64,000 nucleotides of DNA from Anaerolineae bacterium (GTDB lineage Bacteria > Chloroflexota > Anaerolineae > Anaerolineales > Anaerolineaceae): NCBI GenBank assembly GCA_013178295.1, contig JABLWW010000003.1, positions 62,001 through 126,000 on the forward strand, in the 5' to 3' direction. Of the stretch, positions 9,115 to 26,442 are shown in pieces. Made by a program: the position numbers and the translations under genes. Within the stretch, counting starts at the first letter, position 1, and each line of letters starts with the position of its first letter. Under the pieces are notes generated by a model. It was given only the letters and a program-made list of their open reading frames with translations, did no database searches and was not told the origin of the DNA.

Positions 9115-9202
9115 GGCTGCCGACCTCGCTCTATAAAGATATTGTATGCTAAATGAGAGACGATGCAAGTGGATAATACGTTCCCGAATGATGCGGAAAA
9201 AT

Positions 9203-9211
9203 TGGTATAAT
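9203..9211 (+). promoter_or_regulatory. Extended -10 promoter of the class II aldolase gene
   Basis: TGG-TATAAT (9203-9211) is an extended -10 element. No convincing -35 box is seen at the right distance. It lies 41 nt before the ATG at 9252, in the divergent gap with the alpha-2-macroglobulin gene. Confidence 0.45.
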
Positions 9212-9251
9212 GACGGTGTTATTGAGCCTGTGCTGAAGGTCAAAAAAACAC

Positions 9252-9911
9252 ATGTTGCTACAAACCTTACGAGAACAAATTGTCCAGATTGGTTTGCGAA
9301 TGGTGGAGGATGGTCTGGCGCATGGTGCACAGGGTAACATCAGCGCTCTGGATGTGGAAACAGGGCTGATTGCGATTACGCCGAGCGCGTACCCCTATTA
9401 TTTGCGCAAGGCAGAAGATATCTGTGTCATAGATTTGCAGCGCAACCTGATTGAAGGGAAGTGGAAACCGACCAGTGAGATCGCGCTGCATACGATTTTC
9501 TATCAAAAAAGAAAAGATGTGCGTGCGGTGGTACACAGCCATGCGCCAAACAGCACGGTTTTTGGGGTAATTGGCGAGCAGATACCCGCTGTATTGACCG
9601 AGGCAGCGTTTTACCTGACAGGTTCTGTGCCGGTAGCGCCTTATGCATGTCCGGGTTCCGATGAGGTGGCAGAGGTTACTTATGCGGCGATGGGGGAATG
9701 CGGATCAGCGGCTGTTATGGCACATCATGGTTTGCTCACCGTGGGGGATAATCTGGAGCATGCCTATGAGACTACCCTGGCAGCGGAGATGACGGCGCGT
9801 ATTGTCATTATGGCGCGCTCGATGGGGGCAAAGGAAATACCTCTTGACCCGGTTGAGGGTGCTATTTTTAGAATTATCAGAGAATATGGTCTGGCAACGC
9901 GCACGCGCTGA
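9252..9911 (+). CDS. Class II aldolase/adducin-family protein (sugar-phosphate aldolase type)
   Basis: A 219-residue protein matching the fuculose-1-phosphate aldolase/ribulose-5-phosphate epimerase family in length and motifs. The phosphate-binding GNIS loop is at 28-31. The acidic catalytic residue is in TSE (Glu76). Zinc ligands are His95 and His97 in HSH, and a third His is in the HHG motif at about 158-160. Such enzymes cleave or isomerise ketose phosphates or related 3-hydroxy acids via a zinc enediolate. It faces the Mch1 gene tail to tail across a 25-nt gap, and is the first gene of the catabolic part of the window. The exact substrate cannot be assigned. Confidence 0.85.
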   Translation: MLLQTLREQIVQIGLRMVEDGLAHGAQGNISALDVETGLIAITPSAYPYYLRKAEDICVIDLQRNLIEGKWKPTSEIALHTIFYQKRKDVRAVVHSHAPNSTVFGVIGEQIPAVLTEAAFYLTGSVPVAPYACPGSDEVAEVTYAAMGECGSAAVMAHHGLLTVGDNLEHAYETTLAAEMTARIVIMARSMGAKEIPLDPVEGAIFRIIREYGLATRTR

Positions 9912-9936
9912 CGCCGATGCCTAACAAGGCGTAAAG

Positions 9937-10893
9937 TTAGTCCCTTCCCAAGAAGGATTTACGTAGCATATCGCGATCGATTGCACCTGCCGAAAAACAG
10001 TTTCCACTAGAGATGTTGTTAATCTGTACCAGTGCAACGGAGTGAATACGCAGGTCAATCTTGTGAAAATCCATATCATGTTCCACAAAGATCTGGCGAA
10101 ATGTTTTACCATATTGATTGGAAGAACGGGTGGGCAGGTTAGGCAAAATGCGCTGGATGTCGGCGTCATGCCCCTCAAGGTAGATGAGGACTTGCCCGCC
10201 GTAGAGCATACTATCGTTGATTCTTCCCATCGCTTCCAATGCGTCTTCTGCCAGCGGTGGAACGGGGGAGGAAGAGAAAGCATAGCGGACCTTGTGAATG
10301 TCAATTCCTTCTTCGTGCAAACGGTGCATCAGGTTGTCAATTGGGCGGGCGGCAACCTGGATGGCACATACCAGACTGTTGGAAGGGGCGACAAGGATGT
10401 ACAGGTTTTTGGGGTTTAGCTGGCAGGCATCTGCGACCCAATTAGCAAAGTCTTCGGTGATCGGTGCGCTGGTTTGGAAAGGCGCCACTGCCACATCACT
10501 ATCATCGTGGTAGTTTGCATACACAATGCTGGCATCCGGAGGTTTGAGAAGTGCCTTGGCGGGACCGGCTAAGATGGGCTGGTGCTCGGCACCTGGAAGC
10601 GGGTCGGCATGTTTTTGCGATACCCAGCCAGCCAGAAAGGGATTGGCGCTGGTGACTTTCACGGATGGCAGCGTGTATTCATCCAACTGAAAACTATCAA
10701 ATGTTACTTCCCCCATGCCCCCCATCGTGATTTCGGCATAGTATTTTCCGGCAAGCCAGCTGCCTTTTGCTTTTTGCCCCATATCAATCACTGTTGTACC
10801 GTTTTTGAGGGTGCTAACAATGACGTTTAATTGCTCTGCCTGCTCTATTATCTTGTCAACAATCTTTTTGGCTTCCCGATTTACGCTGATCAT
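9937..10893 (-). CDS. mch: Methenyl-tetrahydromethanopterin cyclohydrolase-like protein 1 (Mch1)
   Basis: A 318-residue protein that aligns over its whole length with archaeal/methylotroph Mch: the start MISVNREA, VIDMGQ (36-41), LAGPAKAL (108-115), DSDVAVAPF, LYILVAPSNS (164-173), GRINDSMLYGG (223-233) and the C-terminal HKIDLRIHS...VQINN block. Mch interconverts methenyl- and formyl-tetrahydromethanopterin. The start at 10893 (not the further upstream ATG) has a GAGGAG ribosome site and matches the family N-terminus. In the region of the archaeal catalytic Arg/Glu pair this protein has Arg183 but Asp186 instead of Glu, so its activity may be altered. It is divergent from the AOR1-E1-E2 operon, with back-to-back promoters. 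A second copy lies at 42.2 kb. Confidence 0.85.
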   Translation of the reverse strand: MISVNREAKKIVDKIIEQAEQLNVIVSTLKNGTTVIDMGQKAKGSWLAGKYYAEITMGGMGEVTFDSFQLDEYTLPSVKVTSANPFLAGWVSQKHADPLPGAEHQPILAGPAKALLKPPDASIVYANYHDDSDVAVAPFQTSAPITEDFANWVADACQLNPKNLYILVAPSNSLVCAIQVAARPIDNLMHRLHEEGIDIHKVRYAFSSSPVPPLAEDALEAMGRINDSMLYGGQVLIYLEGHDADIQRILPNLPTRSSNQYGKTFRQIFVEHDMDFHKIDLRIHSVALVQINNISSGNCFSAGAIDRDMLRKSFLGRD

Positions 10894-10940
10894 CTCCTGT
10901 CTCCTCTTTTTGTGCAAAGGTGATCTTGCAGTCTTTTGTT

Positions 10941-10969
10941 ATTCTAGCATGTGGCAACGCAAGTGTCAA
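10941..10969 (-). promoter_or_regulatory. Minus-strand promoter of mch1
   Basis: On the minus strand, TTGACA (10969-10964), a 17-nt spacer and TAGAAT (10946-10941) form a near-consensus promoter about 48 nt before the Mch1 start. Its -35 box is the left half-site of the shared operator pattern. Confidence 0.6.
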
Positions 10970-11004
10970 TTTACACTTTACATTTTGCAAAGCATCAGTT
11001 GACA
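10961..11004. promoter_or_regulatory. Candidate operator, mch1/AOR1 divergent region
   Basis: An 18-bp imperfect palindrome, AAGTGTCAATTTACACTT (10961-10978), contains TGTCAA at 10964-10969. TTGACA follows at 10999-11004, exactly 35 bp from the start of TGTCAA. The same 35-bp offset recurs at 18648/18683 and 46249/46284. The function is inferred. Confidence 0.45.
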
Positions 11005-11027
11005 AAGATTTGGATTTATGATAATTT
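10999..11027 (+). promoter_or_regulatory. Promoter of the AOR1-E1-E2 operon
   Basis: TTGACA (10999-11004), a 17-nt spacer and TAATTT (11022-11027) lie 58 nt before the AOR1 ATG. Confidence 0.6.
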
Positions 11028-11084
11028 GATAGAGACGCTTTTGTTTGTTCCACCCTATTTATGTACACAGAGGAATAGTGCGCT

Positions 11085-12950
11085 ATGGCAAAAACAGCTT
11101 TTGTCGATCTTTCGAGCGGTGTTGTTCGTCTTGAACAGAGTGACCCTGCTCTACTGGAAATGTTTCTTGGCGGGCGTGGTTATGCCAGCAAGTTGCTATA
11201 TGATCGGGTTCCGCCGGATGTGCAGCCGCTTTCGCCTGAAAATTTGCTAATTTTTTCAATGGGCATGATGGGGGGAACGCCATGGCCGACTGCCTCGCGT
11301 GGGCATGTGACGTTTAAGTCCCCTGTTACTGGGGCATACGGGCACGCCAATTCGGGAGGTTATTGGGGGGCAGAGCTTGCCAGAGCTGGTTATGATGCGC
11401 TGGTGATTAAGGGGAAGGCCTCGCAACCTGTGTATCTCTATGTTACGGATGATGGGGTGGAAATTCGCCAAGCGGGTGATTTGTGGGGACTGGAAATTAC
11501 ACCTGTTACACAGCGGCTGGAATCTCTTGGTAAGGTGGCATGTATTGGCCCAGCCGGAGAAAATCTGGTCAATTTTGCTGCGATTATGAATGATTACAGC
11601 CGGGCGGCGGCGCGCAGCGGAAGCGGCGCAGTGATGGGTAGTAAATTACTTAAGGCAGTGGTGGTGAAGGCTGCCGGAAAGAAAAATGTGCCTGAAGCTT
11701 ATCTAAAGAAGATCAAAGAACTTTCTCAACGTATGCGGGATGACCGCAACATCGAAGAGTTGAAGCGTTATGGCACATCCATTCTGGTGGAAATCCAGAA
11801 TATGTCGGGCGCTTTGCCTTCGCGTAACCATCAGCGTGTACAGGTGCCTTTTGTGGAGAAGGTGGGTGCTTTTGCACTGGATAAGTATGTGCTACGTGGC
11901 AAGGGGTGTTTCTCCTGCCCGGTGCATTGTGGGCGGGTTACTAAGATACCGCAGGGAGAGTATGCTTGTGATACTGGAGGTCCAGAATACGAGTCGATGT
12001 CTGCTTTGGGTCCGATGACGTGGAACTCCAATATTGAATCGGTGGTTTATGCCAATTTGCGTTGTAATGAGTTGGGGTTGGATACCATCTCAACGGGTGT
12101 AACCATTGCATTTGCAATGGAATGCGCCGAGAATGGTTTGTTGAAGGACGATGAGTTATCTTTGGAGTGGGGGGATGTTAAGACGGAGCTAACATTGATT
12201 GAAAAGATTGCCCGGCGGGAAGGGATTGGCAATCTCCTGGCGGATGGCACCCGCTTGGCAGCAAAGGCAATTGGTGGCGGTGCCGAACGTTTTGCGATGC
12301 AGGTCAAAGGATTAGAACTGCCGCGTCAGGATCCGCGTGTGGCGAAAGGTTTTGGGATGGCACATGCGGTGGGCAATCGCGGGGCAGATCATTTGTATGC
12401 GTTGCCAACAATTGATGCAGCTGGACTTTGGGAAACGGCAAGGCATTATTTCCCTGAAGAGATGCTGGATGAATTAATGGACACTGTCAATGAGAAGTAT
12501 AAGCCGGATATTGTGATTTTGGGGGAGCATTTTTGCGCGCTGGTGGATTCGCTGGGTATCTGCAAACTGGCTTCGGTGGAGAATTTTGCTATTACGCCGG
12601 AGGATCTGGCAGATGGTTTGAGCGAACTGCTGGGCAAGAAAGTAACTGCCGAAGAATTGTTGCTGATCGGAGAACGGGTTGTAAATTTAGAGCGGATGTA
12701 TAACGTCCGTCATGGATACAGCCGCAAAGATGACTATCTCCCCGAGCGGTTTATGAAAGAACCGGTGAATGTGTGGGAGTACACCCCTAATCCTGAGACG
12801 GGGTGGGGCACGCCCTCTGAAAAACCCATTCGAGAGAATGTGGTGATCCGCGACCTGGATGCCATGTTGGATCGCTATTACAGTCTGCGCGGCTGGAGTC
12901 AAGATGGTATTCCTGCTGATGAGACTTTGAGGCGGCTTAAGTTGCTGTAG
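11085..12950 (+). CDS. Aldehyde:ferredoxin oxidoreductase family protein 1 (AOR1)
   Basis: A 621-residue tungsten (or molybdenum) bis-pterin enzyme. The N-terminal pterin domain is recognisable by LGGRGYASKLLYD (28-40), LSPENLLIF (49-57) and GPAGEN (155-160). The 4Fe-4S cluster Cys are C275-x2-C278-x3-C282 (CFSCPVHC) and C493 in SLGICK. The motif NRGADHL (431-437) binds pterin. AORs oxidise aldehydes to carboxylates and reduce ferredoxin in the anaerobic cytoplasm. This is the first gene after the operator at 10.96 kb, followed 32 nt later by E1 alpha. The 16-Cys ferredoxin encoded at 16.27 kb is the likely electron partner. The aldehyde substrate is unknown. Confidence 0.92.
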   Translation: MAKTAFVDLSSGVVRLEQSDPALLEMFLGGRGYASKLLYDRVPPDVQPLSPENLLIFSMGMMGGTPWPTASRGHVTFKSPVTGAYGHANSGGYWGAELARAGYDALVIKGKASQPVYLYVTDDGVEIRQAGDLWGLEITPVTQRLESLGKVACIGPAGENLVNFAAIMNDYSRAAARSGSGAVMGSKLLKAVVVKAAGKKNVPEAYLKKIKELSQRMRDDRNIEELKRYGTSILVEIQNMSGALPSRNHQRVQVPFVEKVGAFALDKYVLRGKGCFSCPVHCGRVTKIPQGEYACDTGGPEYESMSALGPMTWNSNIESVVYANLRCNELGLDTISTGVTIAFAMECAENGLLKDDELSLEWGDVKTELTLIEKIARREGIGNLLADGTRLAAKAIGGGAERFAMQVKGLELPRQDPRVAKGFGMAHAVGNRGADHLYALPTIDAAGLWETARHYFPEEMLDELMDTVNEKYKPDIVILGEHFCALVDSLGICKLASVENFAITPEDLADGLSELLGKKVTAEELLLIGERVVNLERMYNVRHGYSRKDDYLPERFMKEPVNVWEYTPNPETGWGTPSEKPIRENVVIRDLDAMLDRYYSLRGWSQDGIPADETLRRLKLL

Positions 12951-12982
12951 AACGAAGTGATTCTGGCGCAGAGAGGCATTTT

Positions 12983-13975
12983 TTGAAACTCGAAGGATAC
13001 CCAAAAGACTTCTTGATCGATTTGTATCGGCGGATGGTGCTGATCCGTGAATTTGATTTACGCGCGGTCACAGCTAGACAGCAGGGTTTGATACCTGGTT
13101 TTATTCATCCCAGCGAGGGGCAGGAGGCGGTTGCTGTTGGTGTTTGCGCGGCGTTGAACAGCGATGATGTGATTGTCAGCAACCATCGTGGGCATGCGCA
13201 CCATATTGCCAAAGGCGGCGATGTTAGAACGGCGATGGCAGAGCTGGCGGGGCGCGAAACAGGTGATTGCCATGGCAGAGGGGGGAGTTTGCATGTAGCG
13301 AACTTTCGTATAGGCAATATTGGTGCCAACGGTATTGTGGGGGGAGGCATCCCCATCGCTGTGGGGGCTGCGTTGGCATTTCAATATGGGGGCGAAGCGC
13401 GTGTGGCGGTTGCTTTCTTCGGTGATGGGGCGTCAAATCAAGGCACATTTCATGAGGCATGTAATCTAGCTTCGTTGTGGAAATTGCCAGTGGTTTTTGT
13501 CTGTGAAAACAATCATTATGGTGAGGGCACTGCACAGGCTCGACACATGGCTATCGAACGAATTGCCAATCGGGCGCAGGCGTATGGTATGCCGGGCGTA
13601 CACGTGGATGGCAATGATGTTTTAGCAGTGTTTGAGGCGTCAAAAGTGGCGGTTGAAAGAGCGCGTAGCGGCTTGGGTCCGACTTTGATTGAAGCAGAGA
13701 CGGATCGTCTTTGTGGCGCTTATGAAGGTGACCCTCAGTATTATCGTTCTAAAGAGAGCGTGGAGATATTGCGTCAGAAATGTCCCATTGCGCGTTTGCG
13801 CCATGCGCTTTTGGAAAGCCATATCTCGACAGAAGATGAAATTACCGTATATCATCTTGATGCAAAAACAAAGATAGATGAGGCCGTTGACTTTGCTGGC
13901 AAAAGCCCGCTACCTGATCCCAAACAAGTGAATCGCTGGGTGTATGTGGATAGTCATCAGGGCAAAGTGTTTTAG
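12983..13975 (+). CDS. Thiamine-diphosphate dehydrogenase E1 alpha subunit, module 1
   Basis: A 330-residue protein of the pyruvate/acetoin/branched-chain 2-oxoacid dehydrogenase E1 alpha family. The ThDP motif is present: GDG (147-149) through NN (176-177), within GDGASNQGTFHEA and CENNHYGEG. The start is a TTG preceded by AGAGAGG. No ATG fits the family N-terminus. E1 alpha decarboxylates a 2-oxoacid, or cleaves a 2-hydroxyketone such as acetoin, and hands the acyl unit to a lipoyl group. It is followed by E1 beta after 14 nt. The sequence does not tell which 2-oxo compound is used. A close paralog (module 2) lies at 18.8 kb. Confidence 0.9.
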   Translation: MKLEGYPKDFLIDLYRRMVLIREFDLRAVTARQQGLIPGFIHPSEGQEAVAVGVCAALNSDDVIVSNHRGHAHHIAKGGDVRTAMAELAGRETGDCHGRGGSLHVANFRIGNIGANGIVGGGIPIAVGAALAFQYGGEARVAVAFFGDGASNQGTFHEACNLASLWKLPVVFVCENNHYGEGTAQARHMAIERIANRAQAYGMPGVHVDGNDVLAVFEASKVAVERARSGLGPTLIEAETDRLCGAYEGDPQYYRSKESVEILRQKCPIARLRHALLESHISTEDEITVYHLDAKTKIDEAVDFAGKSPLPDPKQVNRWVYVDSHQGKVF

Positions 13976-13989
13976 GAGAGGGATACACC

Positions 13990-14961
13990 ATGCGTGAAAT
14001 GACTTATGCCCAGGCGATACGCGAGGCTCTGGCAGAGGAGATGCGCAGAGATAAGAATGTCTTTCTGATGGGGGAAGATATAGCAATTTTTGAAGGCGCT
14101 TTTGGCGTTACTGGTAACTTGTGGAAAGAGTTTGGGTTGGAACGGGTTCGCGATACGCCCATCTCTGAAGCTGCCATTGTGGGTGCAGGCGTAGGCGCTG
14201 CGATCATGGGCAAACGACCGGTGGTTGAAATTATGTTTGGCGATTTTTTGCCGGTCGGGATGGATCAGATCGTCAATCAGGCAGCCAAGGCGCGGTATAT
14301 GTCGGGGGGGAAGGTGTCTGTTCCGTTGACTATTCGAGTTACGACGGGCGCGACAGGTGCTGCGGCAGGGCATCACTCCCAGAGTTTTGAGGGCTGGTTG
14401 ATTGGAATACCTGGTTTGAAAATAGCGGTTCCTGCATCTCCCGAAGATGCGAAAGGGTTGTTAAAGACAGCCATTCGGGGGGAAGACCCGGTGATATTCT
14501 TTGAACATAAACGTTTATATGGGATGCGCGGTGCTGTGCCTGAGGGAGATTTCACCATTCCTTTTGGCAAAGCCAGGCTGGTTAGACGCGGGAAAGATGT
14601 TACCCTGATAGGGATATCAGGGATGGTGCCGACCTGTTTGGAGGCGGCGGAGGAGCTGCAGAGGGAAGGAGTTGATGCTGAAGTCATTGACCCACGTACG
14701 CTCGTACCACTTGACCGTGATTTAATCCTTGAATCAGCGGTCAAGACTGGGCGGGTGGTTGTTGTTCAGGAGGCGCATAGCCGCGGCGGTGCGGCGGCAG
14801 AGATCGCTGCTCTGATTGCTGAACATGCGATGGATTGGATGAATGCCCCCATTCTGCGCGTGGGCGCGCGTAATGTACCTATTCCGTACAGCCCTGTTTT
14901 AGAGCAGGAAGTGTTACCGGGTAAAGAAGATATTATTGCGGCAGTCAGGAAGCTATTTTGA
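13990..14961 (+). CDS. Thiamine-diphosphate dehydrogenase E1 beta subunit, module 1
   Basis: A 323-residue E1 beta (transketolase central plus C-terminal domain). Typical motifs are FLMGEDIAIFEGAFG, RDTPISEAAIVGAGVG, the HHSQSFEGW active-site region, and VPIPYSPVLEQEVLP near the C-terminus, which in relatives contacts the E2 peripheral-subunit-binding domain. It forms an alpha2beta2 heterotetramer with the upstream subunit. The ribosome site AGGAGAGG precedes the ATG. It is followed, after 3 nt, by the MoaD-E2 fusion, leaving no room for a separate lipoyl-domain gene. Confidence 0.9.
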   Translation: MREMTYAQAIREALAEEMRRDKNVFLMGEDIAIFEGAFGVTGNLWKEFGLERVRDTPISEAAIVGAGVGAAIMGKRPVVEIMFGDFLPVGMDQIVNQAAKARYMSGGKVSVPLTIRVTTGATGAAAGHHSQSFEGWLIGIPGLKIAVPASPEDAKGLLKTAIRGEDPVIFFEHKRLYGMRGAVPEGDFTIPFGKARLVRRGKDVTLIGISGMVPTCLEAAEELQREGVDAEVIDPRTLVPLDRDLILESAVKTGRVVVVQEAHSRGGAAAEIAALIAEHAMDWMNAPILRVGARNVPIPYSPVLEQEVLPGKEDIIAAVRKLF

Positions 14962-14964
14962 AAA

Positions 14965-16290
14965 ATGATTGAAGTTTCGGTTAAGTACTACAATCTGGCA
15001 GCCGATTATATGGCGAAAAAGGCTGAAAAACGCCACATAGCAGACGGCAGCACCTGTCATGATTTATTGATCGTGCTAGCGCGAGAAAACGAGCGATTCT
15101 CCAAGCTGGCACTCAATAGAGAAGGAGTCGTCGGTGGGAGAGTGCGCGTTTTTCGCAATGGAAAAATCGTTTCTAATCTCACTGAGACTCCCCTGGTGAA
15201 TGGGGATGAAATCCAGATATTCCCTGCAGTATCGGGCGGCAGTATCGCATCCGATGAAAATGTTCAGGCTGACGTGCCGTGCCGATTGACGCCGCTGGCT
15301 CGCAGAGTTGCCCAGGTTGCTGGTGTCGATGTACGCCAAATCAAAGGGAGCGGGCGTAATGGTTTGATTACCCGAGCGGATGTCGAACGGGCAATTGTAG
15401 ATCGAGATTCGGGGCATATTTTATGGGACGAGGAAAAAATCTGGTCTCCGTCTTTCAACGCGCCACCAAGAGCAACTCCTATAGCGCGGCGGCTGGCGCG
15501 TCAGGCAGGCGTTAGCGTTGAAGGTGTATGCGGAACAGGCCTTCTTGGGCGGATTACGCGCGAGGATATTGAGCGTACAATTTGCCAAACGCGGTCTTTT
15601 GCTAGCTATGGCGGCGAAAGGCGGCAGGAAAGACTTCTTAATCAACCGGTGCCTGTAACGTTAATGACACAATGTGATTTGACGGCGCTGGTGCCGATAA
15701 AAGATAGCCTGATCAATAGCAGCACAGGGGTTCCTGATCGTGTATTCTATTCTGCTTTTCTGCTTGCGGCTTGTGTTCAAGCGCTATCTGAGTTCTCATC
15801 AGTGAATTGCCATCTGATTGGTGGTGCTCTGCGCTTTTTTAAGAAAGTGCACTTGCGTTTTGTTATTGTTGGCAGTGCGCAGCAGACGAATGAGATTGTT
15901 TTTGAAGATGCACAAAGATATACACTTTCAGATATGCTTTCTGAGCTTGGGGTTTGGTTTTCTGGCGCTGGTGCTTTTAGCAGTACTGGATTAGTGTCTG
16001 AAAAGAGCACGTTCACAGTGGTTGATTATGGCGATACAGTTGTGCGTCATGCCACCATCGCGCTGTATCCTCCACAAGTGGCGGTTTTATGTATTGGAAA
16101 GATGCAGCTTTTGCCGGTAGTCAGAGATGGACAAATTTGTGTGGCAGAGATATTACCTTTGTGTCTGACGTTTGATCATCGGGCGATGGATGGGGCGGGT
16201 GCAGCCCGTTTTTTGGATAGGATGATCACATTATTGCAACAGCCGATTAGATTTCTTGAATTGATTAATGGTAGAACAGATGAGACATAA
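14965..16290 (+). CDS. E2-like acyltransferase with N-terminal MoaD/ThiS-like domain and no lipoyl domain
   Basis: A 441-residue fusion. Residues 1-92 look like a MoaD/ThiS beta-grasp protein, ending in the hydrophobic IQIFPAVSGG with the Gly-Gly at 91-92 that is normally the C-terminus. Two peripheral-subunit-binding domains follow (about 105-144, TPLARRVAQVAG...GLITRADVERA; about 168-206, TPIARRLARQAG...GRITREDIERT). A 2-oxoacid dehydrogenase acyltransferase core runs from about 225 to 435, with the active-site motif DHRAMDG (His405, Asp409). The lipoyl domain and its DKxxxE-type lysine motif, normal at the N-terminus of E2, are absent. PSBDs imply assembly with the adjacent E1. The MoaD-like part recalls the MoaD genes that accompany AORs. 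Acyl donor and role of the Gly-Gly are unknown. Confidence 0.85.
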   Translation: MIEVSVKYYNLAADYMAKKAEKRHIADGSTCHDLLIVLARENERFSKLALNREGVVGGRVRVFRNGKIVSNLTETPLVNGDEIQIFPAVSGGSIASDENVQADVPCRLTPLARRVAQVAGVDVRQIKGSGRNGLITRADVERAIVDRDSGHILWDEEKIWSPSFNAPPRATPIARRLARQAGVSVEGVCGTGLLGRITREDIERTICQTRSFASYGGERRQERLLNQPVPVTLMTQCDLTALVPIKDSLINSSTGVPDRVFYSAFLLAACVQALSEFSSVNCHLIGGALRFFKKVHLRFVIVGSAQQTNEIVFEDAQRYTLSDMLSELGVWFSGAGAFSSTGLVSEKSTFTVVDYGDTVVRHATIALYPPQVAVLCIGKMQLLPVVRDGQICVAEILPLCLTFDHRAMDGAGAARFLDRMITLLQQPIRFLELINGRTDET

Positions 16291-16699
16291 AGTTAAACTT
16301 GTTGTAAATGCAGAAAGATGCACAGGCTGCTTGATTTGCATGAACTTTTGCTCGTTTCATCATGAGAGTATGGTGTGGCAGCAAAAAGCGCGCCTGCGTA
16401 TTGATTCCGAAAGCGATGATGGTCCTTTTCAAGTGCTGATTTGCTGGCAATGTGAGGATGCGGCCTGCGCGGCGGCATGCCCGGTTGAGGCGATTATTCT
16501 CGATCAACAAACAGGTGCCTGGGTGGTGCAAGAGGATATTTGTGTGGGTTGCGGCGAGTGTGTAACAGCTTGCCCTTATGGGGCTATGTATTTAGATGAG
16601 ACGCGTGGCGTTTCGATAAAGTGCGATTTGTGCCAGGGCGCTCCGGAGTGTGCTTTGTTGTGCCCAACGAAAGCTATTTCGCTTGAGCGCGTTATCTAG
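16268..16699 (+). CDS. Ferredoxin-like protein with four 4Fe-4S motifs (AOR electron-transfer subunit)
   Basis: A 143-residue protein with sixteen Cys in four clusters: C18/21/24/28, C59/62/67/71, C92/95/98/102 and C119/122/128/132. This is the HycB/NrfC-like pattern commonly encoded beside AORs. It lies between AOR1's operon and AOR2 and probably carries electrons from one or both AORs to the ferredoxin pool. The reading frame overlaps the end of the E2-like gene by 23 nt. A second in-frame ATG at 16280 would give an 11-nt overlap and a more typical N-terminus. Neither has a clear ribosome site, so coupling to E2 translation is likely. Confidence 0.9.
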   Translation: MVEQMRHKVKLVVNAERCTGCLICMNFCSFHHESMVWQQKARLRIDSESDDGPFQVLICWQCEDAACAAACPVEAIILDQQTGAWVVQEDICVGCGECVTACPYGAMYLDETRGVSIKCDLCQGAPECALLCPTKAISLERVI

Positions 16700-16711
16700 A
16701 GGTATGGCGAG

Positions 16712-18637
16712 ATGTTTGCGTATAAAGGTTTTGCTGGCAAGTGGTTATATGTAGATTTGACGACCTCTAAGATCGAAGTCTGTTCATCTGAACCTCATAT
16801 CGCTGAAGCGTATCTTGGCGGGAGCGGTTTTGGGACGCGCTTGTTATGGGAGAAAGTGTCCCCTCAAACTGACGCTTTATCGCCCGAGAATTTTTTGATT
16901 TTCTCGGCTGGACCATTGTGTGGGACGCTTTTGCCCAATTCCTCGCGGATAGCGGTGATCGCTAAGTCACCGTTGTCTGGTGTTTATGGCGATTCAAACA
17001 GCGGTGGCTTTTGGGGTCCCGAACTCAAATTGGCTGGCTGGGACGCGGTTGTTGTTGTTGGTAAGTCCCCAAAACCCGTTTATTTATCAATTCAAGACGA
17101 TCATGCTGTTTTATGTGATGCCAGCGGGCTGTGGGGATTAACGACAAGCGAGACCGAAAGAGCGATTCGCTCCGAACAAAAGGATGCAAAAATCAAAGTG
17201 GCGGCGATTGGCCCTGCAGGGGAAAATCTGGTGCGTTTTGCTGGGATTCAGTTTACCCCGCAGCGTTCTGCCGCGCGGGTAGGTATGGGCGCGGTGATGG
17301 GCAGCAAGCGTCTGAAAGCGGTGGCGGTGCGCGGCCATGGCCCAGTGCGGGTCGCTGATGCTAAAAGATTTCATCAGTTATCGGTGTCTTTTCATCAGCG
17401 CCTGCACCAGAACCCGATTTATGAGGCAGTAACTCGTTACGGCACTCCGGGGATCACGTCCATTATGAATGCTTTGGGCAGGTTCCCTACGCGTAATTTT
17501 CAGCTGGGTTCTTTTCCGGAGTCTGAGCGTATTGATGCTGAAGCCTTGGAAAGACGAGCGTTTGTACGTCATCTGGCTTGTTTTAATTGTCCGGTGGGTT
17601 GTGATAAACTTTTTCGTGTGCCTGATGGAGATATGGCAGGGCTGGCTTTGCGCAGTGTCGAGTATGAGAATGTCAATGCGCTTGGCGGGGGTATCTGGAA
17701 TGGGGATTTGGACCAGCTTTTGTATCTCAATCGCATATGTGATGAAATGGGGATGGATGTCATCTCTGCTGGCAGAGCGATTAGTTTTGCAATGGAACTG
17801 TGGGAAAATGAGATTCTAAATCTGGATGATACGGGGGGAATCCCCATACGTTGGGGAGATGTAGCGATAACAGCCAGGTTGTTGGTGATGATTGCGAAAC
17901 GTGAAGGATTTGGTGCGCTTTTGGGCGAGGGCGTTAAGCGGGCGGCAGAAAAAATCGGGCGCGGCGCGGAAGAATTTGCCATGCATGTTAAGGGCGTGGA
18001 AATTCCTGGACAAGATGGTAGAGCGCAAAAGTCAATGGGACTGGCACATGCGACCTCTAGCCGCGGGGCAGATCATTTGAAGGCGTTTCCCACAATTGAT
18101 GAAACTAATCAACCAGATGATGCCCTGCGTAGGTATGGTGAGGCGTATTTACCGGAAATGGCAAACCCTTTGGAAACCAGGTATAAGCCCTTTTTAATCA
18201 AAGATGGTGAAGATTTTTGTGCTGTGGTTGATGCTGTTGGTGTGTGTAAGTCGGGAGGCACAAATGTGTTTACCGAATTCTATTGGGAGGATATTGCGGA
18301 AGCGGTAGAGTTTGCGACAGGTATGGAGATGCCCGTGGAGCGTCTCAAGGAAATTGGCGAGCGAATTTGCAACCTTCAACGTTGCTACAATGTGCTGCAT
18401 GGCATTACCCGCACAGATGACCGGCTGCCGCGCCGCTTTTTGCTGGAGGCAAACCCTTCGGGCAATGCGCGCGGCTCAACCATTGATCTTGAACCGATGT
18501 TGGATGAGTACTATGATTTGCGCGGCTGGGAACGTGTTACTGGTTATCCAGGCAAGGAAATTTTGCTAAAGCTCGGATTGGAGGATGCCTGGCAGAGGTT
18601 ATGCGTGTTTCGAAAAGCTTCTGAATCCATGATATAA
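16712..18637 (+). CDS. Aldehyde:ferredoxin oxidoreductase family protein 2 (AOR2)
   Basis: A 641-residue paralog of AOR1. It has LSPENFLIFSAG (56-67) and GPAGENL (167-173). The 4Fe-4S ligands are C290-x2-C293-x3-C297 (CFNCPVGC) plus C512 in AVGVCKSGG, and RGADHL is at 451-456. It starts 12 nt after the ferredoxin gene, so it is co-transcribed with module 1 but is followed by its own promoter gap and module 2. It should be a cytoplasmic W/Mo aldehyde oxidoreductase. The substrate pocket differs from AOR1 in many positions, but no prediction of specificity is justified. Confidence 0.92.
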   Translation: MFAYKGFAGKWLYVDLTTSKIEVCSSEPHIAEAYLGGSGFGTRLLWEKVSPQTDALSPENFLIFSAGPLCGTLLPNSSRIAVIAKSPLSGVYGDSNSGGFWGPELKLAGWDAVVVVGKSPKPVYLSIQDDHAVLCDASGLWGLTTSETERAIRSEQKDAKIKVAAIGPAGENLVRFAGIQFTPQRSAARVGMGAVMGSKRLKAVAVRGHGPVRVADAKRFHQLSVSFHQRLHQNPIYEAVTRYGTPGITSIMNALGRFPTRNFQLGSFPESERIDAEALERRAFVRHLACFNCPVGCDKLFRVPDGDMAGLALRSVEYENVNALGGGIWNGDLDQLLYLNRICDEMGMDVISAGRAISFAMELWENEILNLDDTGGIPIRWGDVAITARLLVMIAKREGFGALLGEGVKRAAEKIGRGAEEFAMHVKGVEIPGQDGRAQKSMGLAHATSSRGADHLKAFPTIDETNQPDDALRRYGEAYLPEMANPLETRYKPFLIKDGEDFCAVVDAVGVCKSGGTNVFTEFYWEDIAEAVEFATGMEMPVERLKEIGERICNLQRCYNVLHGITRTDDRLPRRFLLEANPSGNARGSTIDLEPMLDEYYDLRGWERVTGYPGKEILLKLGLEDAWQRLCVFRKASESMI

Positions 18638-18647
18638 GACTTTATAA

Positions 18648-18688
18648 TGTCAAGTAACACTTATGTTTGTGTCAAATTTCACTTGACA
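18648..18688. promoter_or_regulatory. Candidate operator upstream of module 2
   Basis: TGTCAAGTAACACTT (18648-18662) is followed by TGTCAA (18670-18675), and TTGACA (18683-18688) is the right arm of the dyad TGTCAA-N7-TTGACA. The first TGTCAA and the TTGACA are offset by exactly 35 bp, as at 10.96 and 46.25 kb. The right half is the -35 box of the E1 alpha 2 promoter, so binding would occlude RNA polymerase. Confidence 0.5.
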
Positions 18689-18711
18689 AAATGCTCGCTG
18701 GCTTGTATGGT
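18683..18711 (+). promoter_or_regulatory. Promoter of module 2 (E1 alpha 2 onward)
   Basis: TTGACA (18683-18688), a 17-nt spacer and TATGGT (18706-18711) lie 62 nt before the GTG start of E1 alpha 2. This is the only clear promoter inside the long plus-strand gene run of 11-39 kb. Confidence 0.65.
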
Positions 18712-18772
18712 ATACCCAAAACGTTTGATATATCAGGGAGTGGATAAATTTCTATTCTGACAAGGAGTACAA

Positions 18773-19759
18773 GTGGCAAATTATAAAAAATTTTTTGTTC
18801 TGGATGTGTATCGTAGGATTTACCTGGTCAGGGAGTTTGAGCTTCGTGCAATCGAAGAGCGCAGACGAGGGTTGATTCCTGGCTTTATTCATTCGTGTGT
18901 TGGCGAAGAGGCGACCGCCGTTGGCGCGTGTCTTGCGCTTCATCAAGATGATGTGATTACCAGTACGCATCGCGGGCATGGACATTTGCTGGCAAAGGGC
19001 GGTGACCCGAAATATATGATGGCTGAACTAGCGGCGCGCTCATCTGGATATTGCAAGGGGCGCGGCGGGTCGCTGCATATTGCCGATTTTGATTTGGGAA
19101 TTTTGGGAGCGAACGGTATTGTGGGTGGTGGGATACCAGCGGCTGTTGGGGCGGCATTGGCGTTTTCGCTGCGCAAGGAAAAACGTGTTGCGCTTTCGTT
19201 TTTTGGAGATGGTGCGACCAATCAAGGCTCGTTTCATGAAGCTGCCAACATGGCGGGTTTGTGGAAGCTGCCCGTTATCTTTTTCTGCGAGAACAATTTG
19301 TATGGCGAGGGAACGCCGCAGAGCAAACAGGCGCCTTTGTGTGATCTGGCAAAGCGGGCGGAGAGTTTTTGCTTTCCGGGTGTCATTGTGGATGGCAATG
19401 ACCCGTTGGCGGTCTATGAAGCAACCCGTGAGGCAGTTGAACGGGCACGTGCAGGTGAAGGTCCGACCTTTATCGAAGGAAAAACCTATCGTTTTCGTGG
19501 ACATTACGAAGGAGATCCGCAGGTGTATCGCATCCCGGGCGAGTTGGAAGAATGGCAAGCGCGCGATCCCATCCCGACTTTCCGCCAACGTTTGATAGAG
19601 CAGTGGTCTATTGCAGAAGACGAGATTAAGCAAGTGGAAGATTCTGTTCAGCAGCAACTCAACGAGGCAGTTGCGTATGCATCTTCAGCGCCTATTCCGC
19701 AGGAGGAAGAAGCTTTGGAAGGCGTCTATGCGGATATCCATGGAGGAAAGGTATTCTAA
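18773..19759 (+). CDS. Thiamine-diphosphate dehydrogenase E1 alpha subunit, module 2
   Basis: A 328-residue paralog of the module 1 E1 alpha, with ThDP motif GDG (145-147)...NN (174-175) and the same LIPGFIH, GANGIVGGGIPAAVGAA and WKLPV segments. The GTG start has an AAGGAG ribosome site 7 nt upstream. It retains the RGHYEGDPQ segment near the C-terminal third that module 1 has changed to CGAYEGDPQ, so the two are diverged copies and not recent duplicates. The gene directly precedes E1 beta 2, with one nt between stop and ATG. Confidence 0.9.
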   Translation: MANYKKFFVLDVYRRIYLVREFELRAIEERRRGLIPGFIHSCVGEEATAVGACLALHQDDVITSTHRGHGHLLAKGGDPKYMMAELAARSSGYCKGRGGSLHIADFDLGILGANGIVGGGIPAAVGAALAFSLRKEKRVALSFFGDGATNQGSFHEAANMAGLWKLPVIFFCENNLYGEGTPQSKQAPLCDLAKRAESFCFPGVIVDGNDPLAVYEATREAVERARAGEGPTFIEGKTYRFRGHYEGDPQVYRIPGELEEWQARDPIPTFRQRLIEQWSIAEDEIKQVEDSVQQQLNEAVAYASSAPIPQEEEALEGVYADIHGGKVF

Positions 19760-19760
19760 T

Positions 19761-20747
19761 ATGCGTGAGATCAGTTACTCAGAAGCCATACGCGAAGCTA
19801 TGTGCGAGGAGATGCGCAGGGACGCATCCGTGTTTTTGATGGGTGAGGATGTGGGCGTGTTTGGCGGTGTTTGGGGTGTGTCGCATGATATGTTGCAGGA
19901 GTTTGGCGAGGAGCGAGTGCTGGATACACCCATTAGCGAGATTGCCATTGTCGGGGCTGGGCTGGGGGCTGCTCTGGTGGGAATGCGCCCGATTGTGGAG
20001 ATTATGTTTGGCGACTTTTTGATGTGTGCGGGGGATCAAATTGTCAATCAGGTTGCAAAGGCGCGCTTTATGAGTGGGGGCAAAGCCAGCGTGCCCTTGA
20101 CGATTCGCGTTACCAGCGGCGCTCCTGGTTCAGCAGCCGCACAACATTCTCAAAGTCCCGAGTCATGGTTTATGAATATACCCGGACTGAAGATTGTGGT
20201 CCCAGCAACGCCTGCTGATGCTAAAGGTTTGTTGAAAACGGCATTGCGCGGCGAGGACCCAGTAATTTTTCTTGAGCATAAAATGCTTTATGGTGAGGTG
20301 GGTCCTGTCCCCGAAGACCCTGACTTTATGGTTCCCTTCGGAGAAGCCAATATTTTGCGCTCCGGCAAAGATTTAACAATCATTGCAGTCGGTATCATGG
20401 TCAAAAAGGCGCTTGAGGCTGCCGCACAGTTGGAAAAAGAGTCAATTGATGCTGAAGTGGTTGATGTGCGTACACTGGTGCCGCTGGATAAGCCAACGTT
20501 AATCGCCTCGGTGGCGCGCACTGGCCGGGTTATTGTTGCTCACGAAGCCCATGTGCGCTCTGGTCCAGGTGCGGAGATTGCTGCTATGCTGGCGGAAGAG
20601 GCAATCGAATACTTGGATGGCCCAATTGTGCGAGTGGGCGCGAAAAATGTGCCGCTTCCATATAGCCCGGTATTGGAACAATTTGTTCTGCCTGGGGTTG
20701 CAGATATCGTCCGTGCTGCCAGATCGTTTTGGCCTGCGCACACATAA
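19761..20747 (+). CDS. Thiamine-diphosphate dehydrogenase E1 beta subunit, module 2
   Basis: A 328-residue E1 beta. The frame is open for 50 codons further upstream, inside E1 alpha. The start at 19761 is chosen because MREISYSEAIREA matches the module 1 start MREMTYAQAIREA and an AGGAAAGG site precedes it. Motifs include FLMGEDVGVFGG, LDTPISEIAIVGAG, QHSQSPESW and VPLPYSPVLEQFVLP. It pairs with the preceding alpha subunit. Downstream come a hydroxypyruvate-isomerase-like gene and a conventional E2. Confidence 0.9.
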   Translation: MREISYSEAIREAMCEEMRRDASVFLMGEDVGVFGGVWGVSHDMLQEFGEERVLDTPISEIAIVGAGLGAALVGMRPIVEIMFGDFLMCAGDQIVNQVAKARFMSGGKASVPLTIRVTSGAPGSAAAQHSQSPESWFMNIPGLKIVVPATPADAKGLLKTALRGEDPVIFLEHKMLYGEVGPVPEDPDFMVPFGEANILRSGKDLTIIAVGIMVKKALEAAAQLEKESIDAEVVDVRTLVPLDKPTLIASVARTGRVIVAHEAHVRSGPGAEIAAMLAEEAIEYLDGPIVRVGAKNVPLPYSPVLEQFVLPGVADIVRAARSFWPAHT

Positions 20748-20773
20748 CACTTGAAAACTGAAAGGAATGCAAG

Positions 20774-21574
20774 ATGGAACTCACAGGATATTTGGACTTT
20801 TGGTTTACTGATCGCCCTCTTATTGAAAGGGTAGAGCCTTTTGCTCGTTTGGGGATTAAACGCTTTGATGTTTGGTGTTGGCGGAGTGTCCCAATGGCTG
20901 ATTTGGCAGCGGAATGCAAACGTCATGACTGTATCATCAATTCGACATTTGATGAAGAGATGGGTTCACTTGTTGATCCAAATGATAACCAGTTGACGCT
21001 GCGTACCTGGCAGGAAAGTTTGGAGATGGCGGTGCAGTACGATGTGAAGCATCTGTTCATCTTTTCAAACCAGATTGACATTATTAATGGCAAGGAATGG
21101 ACGCGCCGTCTGTCGCGCAATGTTACAGAGGCTGAGCAATACGCGAACTTACTTGAACAAACGGAAAAGATATTGAAACTGGTTGAACAGACTCATGTCC
21201 AAGTTTGGGTAGAAGCGCTCAATGAATTTCACATCCAGGGGGGCGTTCTGGTGCATGACCATGATCTGGCTGCGGACTGGGTGCGGCGTTTCAACCACCC
21301 TCAGTTCAGGCTGGCGTTTGATTGTTATCATCAACAGCGGACGGCAGGCAATTTGTTTTATGGTTTGGAGGCTTATCGCGATCTGTATCCCACAGTGCAT
21401 GTTGGTGATGTGCCGACGAGACAGGAACCAGGGACAGGGGAGATTAACTTTCCTGGCGTTGCAAAGAAATTGCGGGAATTGGGCTTTGATGGCTTGATTG
21501 GTATGGAGTTCAGACCTTCGCAGACGGAAGAACTGGCTTTGAAGCGGGTTAAAGAGATCTTTTCGATAGGTTGA
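20774..21574 (+). CDS. Hydroxypyruvate isomerase-like TIM-barrel protein (xylose isomerase-like family)
   Basis: A 266-residue AP-endonuclease-2/xylose-isomerase-like barrel. The segment HVGDVPTRQEPGTGEINF (about 210-227) is close to the HADVPGR-EPGTGEINY block of bacterial hydroxypyruvate isomerases, and metal-ligand candidates include the Glu of VEALNE and the Asp/His of DCYHQQ. Members isomerise or epimerise small 2-keto/hydroxy acids or sugars. It sits between E1 beta 2 and E2 of module 2, with 26 and 3 nt gaps, suggesting that it feeds a 2-oxo compound to this dehydrogenase. The exact reaction is not assignable. Confidence 0.75.
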   Translation: MELTGYLDFWFTDRPLIERVEPFARLGIKRFDVWCWRSVPMADLAAECKRHDCIINSTFDEEMGSLVDPNDNQLTLRTWQESLEMAVQYDVKHLFIFSNQIDIINGKEWTRRLSRNVTEAEQYANLLEQTEKILKLVEQTHVQVWVEALNEFHIQGGVLVHDHDLAADWVRRFNHPQFRLAFDCYHQQRTAGNLFYGLEAYRDLYPTVHVGDVPTRQEPGTGEINFPGVAKKLRELGFDGLIGMEFRPSQTEELALKRVKEIFSIG

Positions 21575-21577
21575 TGC

Positions 21578-22777
21578 ATGGTACCCGAAGCGCAAAAAGC
21601 CGATAATGTCTATACGGTGGTGATGCCCAAGCTGGGGCTCATCATGACCGAAGCTTTACTGGTTGAATGGCGGAAAAAGGAAGGCGAATGGGTTGATAAA
21701 GGGGAAGTTCTTTTCGCAATGGAGAGTGATAAGTCCACACTCGAGATTGAAGCCCCTGCCAGCGGGTATGTACATATTCTGGTAGCTGCGGGCGAAGTTG
21801 TCCCTGTGCAGACCCCTATTTGTTTAATCTCTGATCAATTGCAATCGCCTAAGCCTGTGGTTGAGCAGCTTCCCAGAGTGCAGGAAGTTCACAGCGATGT
21901 TAAGATGCTTAAGCAGCCAGATACGATTTCTGTTTCTGATATTGTGCCAAGGGTTGCCGCGTCACCCAAAGCCCGTACGCTTGCACGCAGGTTGAATCTG
22001 GACCTGACAAAAATATCTGCCAGCGGTCCAAAGGGGATGATTGTCAGTAATGATGTGGCGAATGCTAGTAAGCAAAAGGACGCGCCTTCCGAAACGTTGC
22101 CGTTGAGCGGTTTGCGCGCGGTGATTGCAGAGCGTTTGTCTGCCAGCTGGCGCGAAAGACCGCAGGTAACACTGGTTACAGAAATTGATGCCACCGATTT
22201 GGTTAGCGCACGCAGCCAGATACAGTTGGAGACTGGGAAGAAGCTGTCTTATAATGCGTTTTTTATGGCTGCCGTTGCGCGTGCGCTCTATGAACATCCT
22301 TATGTCAATGCTCATTTGGAAAAAGATGGGCTTTGCCGAATGGAAGCAATTCACATCGGCATCGCTGTGGATACGCCAAGAGGGCTAATGGTTCCGGTGG
22401 TACGTGATGTTGATCACAAAGGTTTGCTGGAAATTGACGATGAGCTTAAGCGTTTGGCGGCAAATGCCCTCGAAGGACGAAGCACGCCGGATGAGTTGAG
22501 CGGTGGAACGTTTACCATCACCAATCTGGGACAGTTTGGTATTGATGCCTTTACGCCGATCATCAATCCGCCCGAAGCCGCTATTTTGGGTGTTGGGCGA
22601 ATTTCGCCACGTCCTTTCGTGTTCAATGGGCAGTTGGCTGTTCGCGAGACGGTAACATTGAGTTTGTCCTTTGATCATCGTTTGTTGGATGGCGCTCCGG
22701 CGGCGCGTTTTTTGCAGCGTGTATCGCAGTTGCTTGAACGCCCTGTTCTGCTGTATTCTCATAAGTTTGGTGTGTGA
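21578..22777 (+). CDS. Dihydrolipoamide acyltransferase (E2) with lipoyl domain, module 2
   Basis: A 399-residue conventional E2. The lipoyl domain covers about 12-86, with lipoylated Lys52 in ESDKSTLE. One peripheral-subunit-binding domain runs from about 128 to 163 (SPKARTLARRLN...GMIVSNDV). The catalytic domain covers about 172-395, with DHRLLDG (His367, Asp371). It transfers the acyl group from lipoyl to CoA in a 2-oxoacid or acetoin dehydrogenase complex. It is encoded 3 nt after the isomerase-like gene. No dihydrolipoamide dehydrogenase (E3) is encoded anywhere in the window, so E3 must come from elsewhere, or electrons leave the lipoyl group another way. Confidence 0.92.
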   Translation: MVPEAQKADNVYTVVMPKLGLIMTEALLVEWRKKEGEWVDKGEVLFAMESDKSTLEIEAPASGYVHILVAAGEVVPVQTPICLISDQLQSPKPVVEQLPRVQEVHSDVKMLKQPDTISVSDIVPRVAASPKARTLARRLNLDLTKISASGPKGMIVSNDVANASKQKDAPSETLPLSGLRAVIAERLSASWRERPQVTLVTEIDATDLVSARSQIQLETGKKLSYNAFFMAAVARALYEHPYVNAHLEKDGLCRMEAIHIGIAVDTPRGLMVPVVRDVDHKGLLEIDDELKRLAANALEGRSTPDELSGGTFTITNLGQFGIDAFTPIINPPEAAILGVGRISPRPFVFNGQLAVRETVTLSLSFDHRLLDGAPAARFLQRVSQLLERPVLLYSHKFGV

Positions 22778-22779
22778 TT

Positions 22780-23511: not shown

Positions 23512-24263
23512 TGGAAATAAAAGATAAGGTGGCGCTGGTTACTGGTGGCGCGCATCGGGTGGGGCGGGTAATGATGCTGGCTTTGGCAAAAGCTGGCGCA
23601 AATGTTGTGATTAATTATCGTTCCAGCCGCGAGGAGGCTGAGCGCACGGCTGAGGAAGCGCGGGCGTATGGTGTTGAAGCCATGACGGTGCAGGCGGATG
23701 TTGCACATTACGATCAAGTCAAACGCATGGCTGAGGAGGTGCGGCAGAAATTTGGAGGGGTGGATATTCTGATCAACAGCGCTTCTATATTTCAAAAGAC
23801 ACCTTTCCCATTGGAAGATGTGGAACTTTGGCATCAGGTAACAGCAATACAAATCGATGGCCCCTTTTACTGCGCAAATGTTTTTGCCCCTGATATGCTC
23901 AAAAGAGGAGAAGGCGTCATCATTAACATTGTGGATTTATCAGCATGGGAGCCGTGGCCCAATTTTGCCGCGCACAGTGTTGGCAAGGCGGCATTGCTTG
24001 CACTGACGAGGCAACTGGCGTTAGAACTGGCGCCCGCAGTGCGTGTCAATGCAATTGCTCCTGGACCTGTGCTTCCGCCACCGGACTATGACGACGCCAA
24101 AATCGCCCGTACAGCAAAGAAGACCTTATTGCAGCGCTGGGGCAGCCCGGAAGATATTTCTCATGCGGTTCTGTTTCTGGTAGAATCAAACTATATTACC
24201 GGTGACACGATTATTGTGGATGGCGGCGAACGTTTTGCTCACCGCAGAACAGAAGAAGGATGA
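23511..24263 (+). CDS. Pteridine-reductase-like SDR with Tyr-to-His active site (copy 2)
   Basis: A 250-residue paralog of the preceding gene, with TGGAHRVGR (11-19), Asp142, and HSVGK at 155-159, where the catalytic Tyr should be. The canonical NNAG is NSAS. VNAIAPGPVLPPP again points to the pteridine-reductase branch. Because both neighbours have the same substitution, a hetero-oligomer with an unusual proton donor, or a non-redox role, is possible. Translation is coupled to copy 1 by a 1-nt overlap. The next gene, an amidohydrolase, begins 7 nt later. Confidence 0.8.
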   Translation: MEIKDKVALVTGGAHRVGRVMMLALAKAGANVVINYRSSREEAERTAEEARAYGVEAMTVQADVAHYDQVKRMAEEVRQKFGGVDILINSASIFQKTPFPLEDVELWHQVTAIQIDGPFYCANVFAPDMLKRGEGVIINIVDLSAWEPWPNFAAHSVGKAALLALTRQLALELAPAVRVNAIAPGPVLPPPDYDDAKIARTAKKTLLQRWGSPEDISHAVLFLVESNYITGDTIIVDGGERFAHRRTEEG

Positions 24264-26441: not shown

Positions 26442-26442
26442 C

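Follow-up and report, generated by a model that had tools for sequence, protein, structure and literature searches.

Fusions of MoaD-type sulfur carriers and E2 proteins without a lipoyl domain of their own have each been described. MoaX of M. tuberculosis and the MoaD-MoaE fusion of Deinococcus have an N-terminal MoaD, an internal Gly-Gly and a second protein behind it; according to the cited passages, cleavage of MoaX falls between Gly82 and Ser83, through a protease that the paper does not name (PMC4326299), and DRJAMM is the peptidase cutting the Deinococcus fusion (PMC8832034). MoaD genes adjoining genes of aldehyde ferredoxin oxidoreductase (AOR) have long been described and taken as tungstopterin sulfur carriers (PMC1779556; PMC6365974, in the parts cited), and a MoaD-AOR fusion is reported from Azoarcus (PMC1779556). 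The AorABC system of Aromatoleum aromaticum comprises the AOR large subunit, a four-cluster AorA ferredoxin and MoaD-like genes, in an operon running from aorA to aorE for which the available parts of PMC6365974 and PMC10413684 give no E1 or E2 genes. Among 2-oxoacid dehydrogenases, the eukaryotic E3-binding protein, or protein X, is described as an E2 paralogue combining a peripheral-subunit-binding domain (PSBD) with a degenerate core and accompanying an active E2 (PMC10156792). Finally, OdhA/KGD of actinobacteria has, as far as the cited text of PMC10415282 goes, an E2 domain that lacks its own lipoyl domain, is joined to E1 and is functional, the lipoyl group being supplied in trans; the statement of a sequence-only reading of the present DNA that all known E2s carry lipoyl domains is thereby too broad.

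The gene studied here lies at 14965-16290 of the window, i.e. the whole 64,000-nucleotide stretch that was analysed, and shares traits with each of these systems. As in MoaX and MoaD-MoaE, a MoaD stands at the N-terminus, an internal Gly-Gly and a second protein follow, and a JAMM protein is encoded in the genome, but the partner is a PSBD/E2-like protein rather than MoaE, and cleavage is here predicted. MoaD lies beside an AOR gene, as in the AOR-linked cases, but is joined to an E2 paralogue, unlike the Azoarcus fusion. The PSBDs and degenerate core recall protein X, as does the coexistence with a complete lipoyl E2 (21578-22777), but the present protein is bacterial, has no lipoyl domain, retains DHRAMDG and has gained MoaD, its core being judged from sequence. 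Unlike OdhA, it is not joined to E1; unlike the Aromatoleum operon, its cluster holds E1 and E2 genes.

Architecture of the fusion gene

The gene (+ strand) is a 441-aa frame free of stops, in which a MoaD/ThiS domain, two PSBDs and a degenerate E2-like core follow one another without interruption. Pfam agrees with the domain order proposed by the sequence-only reading, all three families scoring above their curated cut-offs: ThiS (PF02597) on residues 20-92 (E 4.7e-11, 43.5 bits versus 22.5), E3_binding (PF02817) in two stretches (84.7 bits) and 2-oxoacid_dh (PF00198) on residues 230-430 (E 3.9e-27, 95.6 bits versus 23). The MoaD/ThiS domain occupies residues 1-92 (14965-15240) and ends with Gly91-Gly92 (codons at 15235-15240), which is indeed internal, as had been claimed, and is the presumed cleavage or thiocarboxylate site, in the context FPAVSGG followed by S. 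An in-frame linker of residues 93-106 (15241-15282), without stop and without in-frame ATG, leads to the first PSBD (about residues 107-144, 15283-15396), which shares 45% identity across 38 aa with the PSBD found in an E2-like protein of a same-family relative (genome G223, discussed below). The second PSBD (residues 168-203, 15466-15573) is the best PF02817 stretch, and the remnant of the catalytic domain (residues 230-430, 15652-16254) is predicted to retain an E2-core fold. Within the latter, FTVVDYG (16012-16032) replaces FTI[ST]NLG, and DHRAMDG (residues 404-410, 16174-16194) is kept.

Biotin_lipoyl gave no match in the fusion up to E 1, and residues 1-104 contain no DK motif, which together speak against a lipoyl fold for residues 1-92. 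Nor has a lipoyl domain been left on a neighbouring fragment, as the earlier reading had rightly pointed out, since the E1-beta gene upstream stops at 14961, only 3 nt before the fusion begins. Composition does not break abruptly at the junction: over residues 1-92, 93-106 and 107-165, GC is 0.48, 0.52 and 0.53, and GC3 0.50, 0.50 and 0.47, falling to 0.39 in the core. An internal restart may yield a separate E2-like protein, as in-frame GTG (Val104) and TTG (Leu108) codons are present; against this, the linker has no in-frame ATG, and no clear ribosome-binding site is seen by eye before either codon. Rfam gave no match over window positions 9000-27000.

Searched by sequence against the PDB, the whole fusion finds E2 cores and PSBDs as its nearest entries, with protein X at 2e-6, and Foldseek with the predicted model matched E2 cores. 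In the AlphaFold prediction of the full chain, the PSBDs and most of the core are well modelled, the MoaD part having a pLDDT of about 30; residues 1-95 predicted alone reach 42, so that no usable MoaD structure was obtained.

The MoaD half and its possible release

The assignment of the N-terminal domain relies on the Pfam match and on its resemblance to known carriers. The moaD_arch model of NCBIfam aligns with residues 4-92 (1e-11, 45.2 bits, below its 49.5-bit cut-off) and the SAMP1 model with residues 4/5-92 (44.1 bits, below its cut-off of 60), while a PDB search with residues 1-95 brought up MoaD and SAMP1 proteins as the nearest sequences, at weak E-values (3e-4 at best). As encoded, the Gly-Gly is internal, and a free C-terminal Gly-Gly would exist only if the chain were cut.

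The genome offers a parallel for such a cut. Elsewhere than in the AOR/E1 cluster, it encodes a 232-aa MoaD-MoaE frame reading FFPPVSGGTDSP, whose internal Gly-Gly lies in the similar context FPPVSGG followed by T; MoaE is absent from the 14965-16290 fusion. MoaE and ThiS matches in one open frame (234-243 aa) were found in four of six genomes searched (G000, which is the window's own, G223, G227 and G216). A Prok-JAB protein bearing the JAMM signature HSHPKGPEVPSDTD is encoded in the window's genome as well (G000 C19:47679-47984). Given the similar internal Gly-Gly of MoaD-MoaE and the JAMM peptidase, release of MoaD after Gly92 is plausible, and cleavage there would be the economical reading. 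However, the genome has ten ThiS-family matches, among them one frame of 759 aa besides the fusion and MoaD-MoaE; with other free MoaD-like genes at hand, the release of the fused copy need not matter. Free MoaDs also carry short tails behind Gly-Gly: CYS in G223, and MV and CVFSTF in the own genome. A further AOR-linked MoaD fusion was noticed in genome G273 (L065 2376-3926), where a MoaD-like domain, Gly-Gly and a pyridine nucleotide-disulphide (FAD) oxidoreductase share one 516-aa frame adjoining an AOR2-like gene upstream.

Gene cluster around the fusion

The AOR/E1 setting described by the sequence-only reading holds, with three such genes directly upstream. The run, all on the + strand, consists of AOR1 (11085-12950; PF02730 and PF01314, 72% identity to AOR1 of G223), E1-alpha 1 (12983-13975; PF00676), E1-beta 1 (13990-14961; DTPISE and HSQS motifs kept in the alignment), the fusion, an AorA-like ferredoxin with four cysteine motifs (16268-16699; PDB 8c0z_C, E 1e-30), AOR2 (16712-18637; Pfam, PDB 1aor, E 1.3e-128), and E1-alpha 2 (18773-19759) and E1-beta 2 (19761-20747), both recognized by Pfam and 81% and 86% identical to their G223 counterparts. 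It continues with a xylose-isomerase-like TIM barrel (20774-21574; Pfam), used here as marker gene of the cluster, a complete E2, SDRs and an amidohydrolase. The complete E2 begins 5.3 kb downstream of the fusion and comprises a lipoyl domain (Biotin_lipoyl, 4.2e-14), a PSBD (E3_binding, 39.6 bits) and a core (PF00198, 278.1 bits).

The region 20774-36242 has the look of a catabolic cluster, with the TIM barrel, several SDRs and the amidohydrolase and, by eye, a DhnA-like aldolase, a BmpA-like lipoprotein with ABC permeases, and FAD oxidases. On the other side, divergent from the AOR/E1 genes, lies a gene of the MCH family (methenyl-tetrahydromethanopterin cyclohydrolase, PF02289, E 1e-95; 9937-10917, - strand). 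An MCH gene is likewise divergent from the cluster in G223 (L063 11987-12943, + strand), and L168, L169 and L170 have MCH-like frames close to the TIM-barrel gene. Further out, 3040-9330 (- strand) encodes a bacterial alpha-2-macroglobulin of 2096 aa.

A relative with separate genes

Among the 61 genomes searched with fusion residues 1-222, G223 (E 1.1e-24) is the informative one, and it is also conspicuous among the 147 family genomes searched with AOR1. Its cluster (L063) reads AOR1, MoaD, a 258-aa PSBD/E2-like protein, E1-alpha, E1-beta, TIM barrel and complete E2, followed downstream of the lipoyl E2 by the same run of SDRs and amidohydrolase as in the window. The MoaD, 93 aa long and ending in SGGCYS, is encoded directly behind AOR1, and the E2-like gene lies 22 nt away in a different frame (MoaD stop at L063 9645, next start at 9622). 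Pfam finds no lipoyl match in the E2-like protein. The MoaD is 49% identical to fusion residues 2-92 over 91 columns, and the E2-like protein 25% identical to residues 169-433; the other neighbours common to both clusters are 62-86% identical, MoaD aside.

Because the E2-like gene of G223 is lipoyl-less and stands apart from MoaD, MoaD was most likely joined to such a protein rather than substituted for a lipoyl domain. The window gene would thus most likely be a fusion of an AOR-linked MoaD with an E2 paralogue already without lipoyl domain, an order of events that we infer from the two genomes. The history proposed earlier, in which MoaD came to stand in the lipoyl domain's place by replacement, appears less likely in the light of G223.

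The E2-like half

In claiming an acyltransferase core with intact DHRAMDG, the sequence-only reading was right about the motif, but the core around it is strongly degenerate. The fourth position of FTI[ST]NLG is Ser or Thr in 31 of the 33 other E2 rows and lost in the window's FTVVDYG; the GLxVPV-type motif is gone and the N-terminal elbow reduced. The DH of DHRAMDG, kept in all 33 other rows, is retained in the window, while the G223 copy has its histidine replaced as well (FDSKTVDY). (Frames below 300 aa, namely those of L016, L162 14464-15168 and L169, were dropped from these rows, the G223 pseudo-E2 excepted, and one duplicate was merged.) In the E2-core tree, the end branches measure 4.11 (window) and 7.25 (G223) versus a median of 0.58, and the placement of the pseudo-E2s is unsure owing to these long branches.

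The PSBDs fare differently. In 11 complete E2s scanned (window, G223, L161, L013, L014, L018, L025, L029, L030, L183 and L186), core scores lie between 194 and 287 bits and those for E3_binding between 25 and 114 bits, as against 95.6 and 84.7 bits in the fusion, whose PSBDs are therefore within the normal range and whose core is far below it. The G223 E2-like protein, with one PSBD, scores 53.1 bits for E3_binding and 20.2 bits for the core, under the cut-off of 23. The idea that the PSBDs of the pseudo-E2s outscore those of complete E2s was dropped once the 11 complete E2s placed them in the normal range; as their scores are ordinary, they indicate that the PSBDs were kept and nothing further, and we hold the cut-and-scaffold reading set out below slightly less firmly, and a decaying remnant to be slightly more probable, than before that comparison. 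A lipoyl domain, two PSBDs and a core occur in three of the 11 complete E2s (L161, L013, L014), so that the tandem PSBD of the fusion was probably inherited. With normal PSBDs and a poor core, the E2 half most likely serves as a PSBD scaffold whose core has worn down, a role suggested by this pattern of conservation.

Loss of the Ser/Thr was also dropped as proof of an inactive core. Thr323Ala of E. coli E2o is reported to retain 45% activity, Asp and His carrying most of the catalysis (PMC5986005, in the part cited); with DHRAMDG intact, inactivity of the window core is thus unproven, and residual activity in trans would be possible.

An E1-alpha without its loop histidine

Another departure lies two genes upstream of the fusion. 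Residue 246 of E1-alpha 1, in the TYRxxGH loop (codon at 13718-13720), is Ala, as opposed to His in all 37 other E1-alpha rows (13 of 13 in a smaller first set; frames below 250 or above 459 aa left out). The protein departs at only two of 38 near-invariant columns (E25D and H246A), and E1-beta 1 at two of 48 (L284M and D285N). Residue 241 is Asp, at a position that is Tyr in 31 of the 37 other rows. E1-alpha 1 is 56% identical to E1-alpha 2 and, in a quick tree, the sister paralogue of the E1-alpha 2 clade (SH-aLRT 95).

Aligned with human E1-alpha, A246 falls on the His of the tyryhghsmsdp loop, and from the motif and this alignment it would be the counterpart of H271-alpha of G. stearothermophilus. 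A role for that histidine in helping acyl groups onto lipoate has been proposed, and replacing it by Ala reportedly gives a mutant similar to I206A-alpha, with activity towards an artificial acceptor raised and complex activity lowered (both from the cited part of PMC2663715). An E1 weak in lipoyl acylation, a lipoyl-less E2-like protein and two AORs would together suggest the release of an aldehyde to AOR. The E1-alpha of the G223 cluster keeps its histidine, however, so that these losses need not go together.

Distribution

Across overlapping, non-exhaustive samples, the fusion was found in the window's genome alone. No other was found with residues 1-222 in 61 genomes, with residues 1-150 in 400 genomes of the phylum, or with the whole protein at E 1e-30 in 199 genomes of the class (own genome included each time), nor in the 16 loci examined. 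None of 62 matching plasmid records covers 80% of residues 1-222, and a search of viral contigs with the MoaD part found no relative. Matches spanning the MoaD end and the first PSBD in L013, L014, L018, L025, L029, L030, L183 and L186 are all Biotin_lipoyl-positive; by eye, that of G200 has a lipoyl motif and that of G945 is a MoaD-MoeB-like frame, and the MoaD-like match of G387 lies within a 554-aa frame. The remaining rows of these searches were judged from the match range. Present in one genome, the fusion shows nothing of having been selected for. In the literature searched, we found no paper joining aldehyde ferredoxin oxidoreductase, MoaD and dihydrolipoamide acetyltransferase, and no title or abstract opening naming a MoaD-E2 fusion.

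The surrounding genes are more widespread. AOR1 was detected in 12 of 147 family genomes at 1e-150 (own included) and in eight of 301 genomes of the phylum sample at 1e-120. Nine of the 11 other AOR1-bearing family genomes have a MoaD-like frame near AOR1, always separate from any E2; the two others (G554 and G555), on short contigs of 4,885 and 11,238 bases, gave no MoaD by tblastn. The TIM-barrel gene was found at 1e-70 in 17 of 400 genomes of the order, own included, and the E1/TIM/E2 cluster seems to predate the fusion. In the 15 TIM-barrel loci besides those of the window and G223, a lipoyl E2 lies alongside in five (L161, L162, L166, L167 and L171), tblastn found no MoaD, and all matches of the pseudo-E2 fell on their E2s or on a core-only frame in L162.

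Other unusual E2 genes were encountered. The L162 frame (14464-15168, genome G207), downstream of a complete E2, encodes a 234-aa catalytic domain that is not decayed (216 bits) and matches no lipoyl domain or PSBD. Near the TIM-barrel gene of L169 (12717-13855, G642), a lipoyl frame of 135 aa and a core frame of 235 aa apparently represent a divided E2, through either a split gene or a frameshift. In L026 and L027 (Hydrogenedentota), 322-aa E2-like proteins with DHRAMDG have Ala at the Ser/Thr place and, by their length, are probably lipoyl-less.

Possible functions of the fusion

The reading that we favour, tentatively and as a joint claim, is that of a gene fusion whose chain is cut after Gly92 to give a free MoaD and a PSBD docking scaffold. 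Its starting points are the domain content, the separate genes of G223, the missing lipoyl domain, the decayed core with its PSBDs, and the MoaD-MoaE and JAMM genes of the genome; cleavage, scaffolding and the choice of partners we infer from these. Two neighbouring genes of an AOR/2-oxoacid-dehydrogenase cluster would have fused. The N-terminal half would be an AOR-linked MoaD-type sulfur carrier, whose usual job is sulfur donation in tungstopterin synthesis, and the C-terminal half a degenerate, lipoyl-less E2 paralogue whose PSBDs would dock E1 and/or E3, the scaffold acting on its own or jointly with the complete E2's core. Made whole, the chain would be cut after Gly92 by a JAMM/MPN+ peptidase, as in MoaD-MoaE fusions, into a MoaD with C-terminal Gly-Gly and a separate PSBD scaffold, approximately the products of the two G223 genes. 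A scaffold and processing after Gly-Gly had both been suggested from the sequence, and enter our leading readings in this conditional form; for a thiocarboxylate acyl carrier, a third suggestion, nothing speaks beyond the Gly-Gly itself.

If the chain instead stays uncut, MoaD could dock on AOR or on its maturation site, and the PSBDs could hold a lipoate-independent E1-alpha 1/E1-beta 1. This E1 would decarboxylate a 2-oxoacid (or split an acyloin) and free an aldehyde, which the tethered AOR would oxidize, passing electrons to the AorA-like ferredoxin. The two AORs and the ferredoxin in the same gene run are consistent with this, as are the intact DTPISE and HSQS motifs of E1-beta 1 and the replacement of a histidine found in 37 of 37 other rows, in an E1-alpha 1 with only two departures in 38 near-invariant columns. 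Yet we found no case in the literature of MoaD docking on a mature AOR, neither of the two MoaD-like proteins encoded in the Aromatoleum operon is present in the purified enzyme (in the available part of PMC6365974), G223 has a free MoaD with a histidine-bearing E1-alpha, and the equation of A246 with H271-alpha leans on motif and human alignment, in a loop where Tyr at position 241 occurs in no more than 31 of the 37 other rows. We therefore regard an uncut chain as unlikely, though as the foremost alternative. Somewhat more doubtful still is the full scheme of a lipoate- and CoA-free oxidative decarboxylation, with E1-alpha 1/E1-beta 1 on the PSBD scaffold and the fused MoaD recruiting a tungsten AOR; E1, deprived of the histidine for lipoyl acylation, would turn the 2-oxoacid into an aldehyde, AOR the aldehyde into an acid, and an AorA-type ferredoxin wire would take up the electrons.

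Three other explanations carry less weight. That the E2-like half is left over from an E2 duplication and is decaying, a tail on MoaD in a fusion with no role of its own, would fit the 25% identity of the pseudo-E2s as against 62-86% for shared neighbours except MoaD, as well as the single PSBD and weaker core of G223; with both frames open over their full length and PSBD scores in the range of complete E2s, we consider it improbable. Similarly placed, if in our view a shade less probable, is a core with acyltransferase activity that draws in trans on the lipoyl domain of the downstream complete E2: DHRAMDG is intact, that E2 lies in the same cluster, OdhA provides a precedent (PMC10415282, as cited) and the isolated E2o core is reported to be active in trans with a lipoyl domain (PMC5986005, likewise), but the elbow is reduced, the GLxVPV-type motif and the Ser/Thr are lost, the end branch is about seven times the median and the histidine itself is replaced in the G223 relative. 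Finally, an assembly or base-calling error joining two separate genes seems very improbable. There is a single assembly, and the nearest relative found has separate genes, but the frame is held through a 14-aa linker without ATG, composition does not change abruptly, and in G223, where the two genes differ in frame, a single base error would not fuse them.

The fusion is real and, so far, single, an AOR-linked sulfur carrier joined to a lipoyl-less E2-like protein that is probably a scaffold, and the functional reading proposed for it is bold and conjectural. Three losses in one gene run, those of the lipoyl domain, of E2 core motifs and of the E1 histidine, point in the same direction and, if the bolder reading were true, a 2-oxoacid dehydrogenase complex would have been rebuilt with a tungsten enzyme, instead of lipoate, at its centre. 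On the soberer reading, MoaD precursors may ride on unrelated proteins and be freed by a peptidase like the one maturing MoaD-MoaE.
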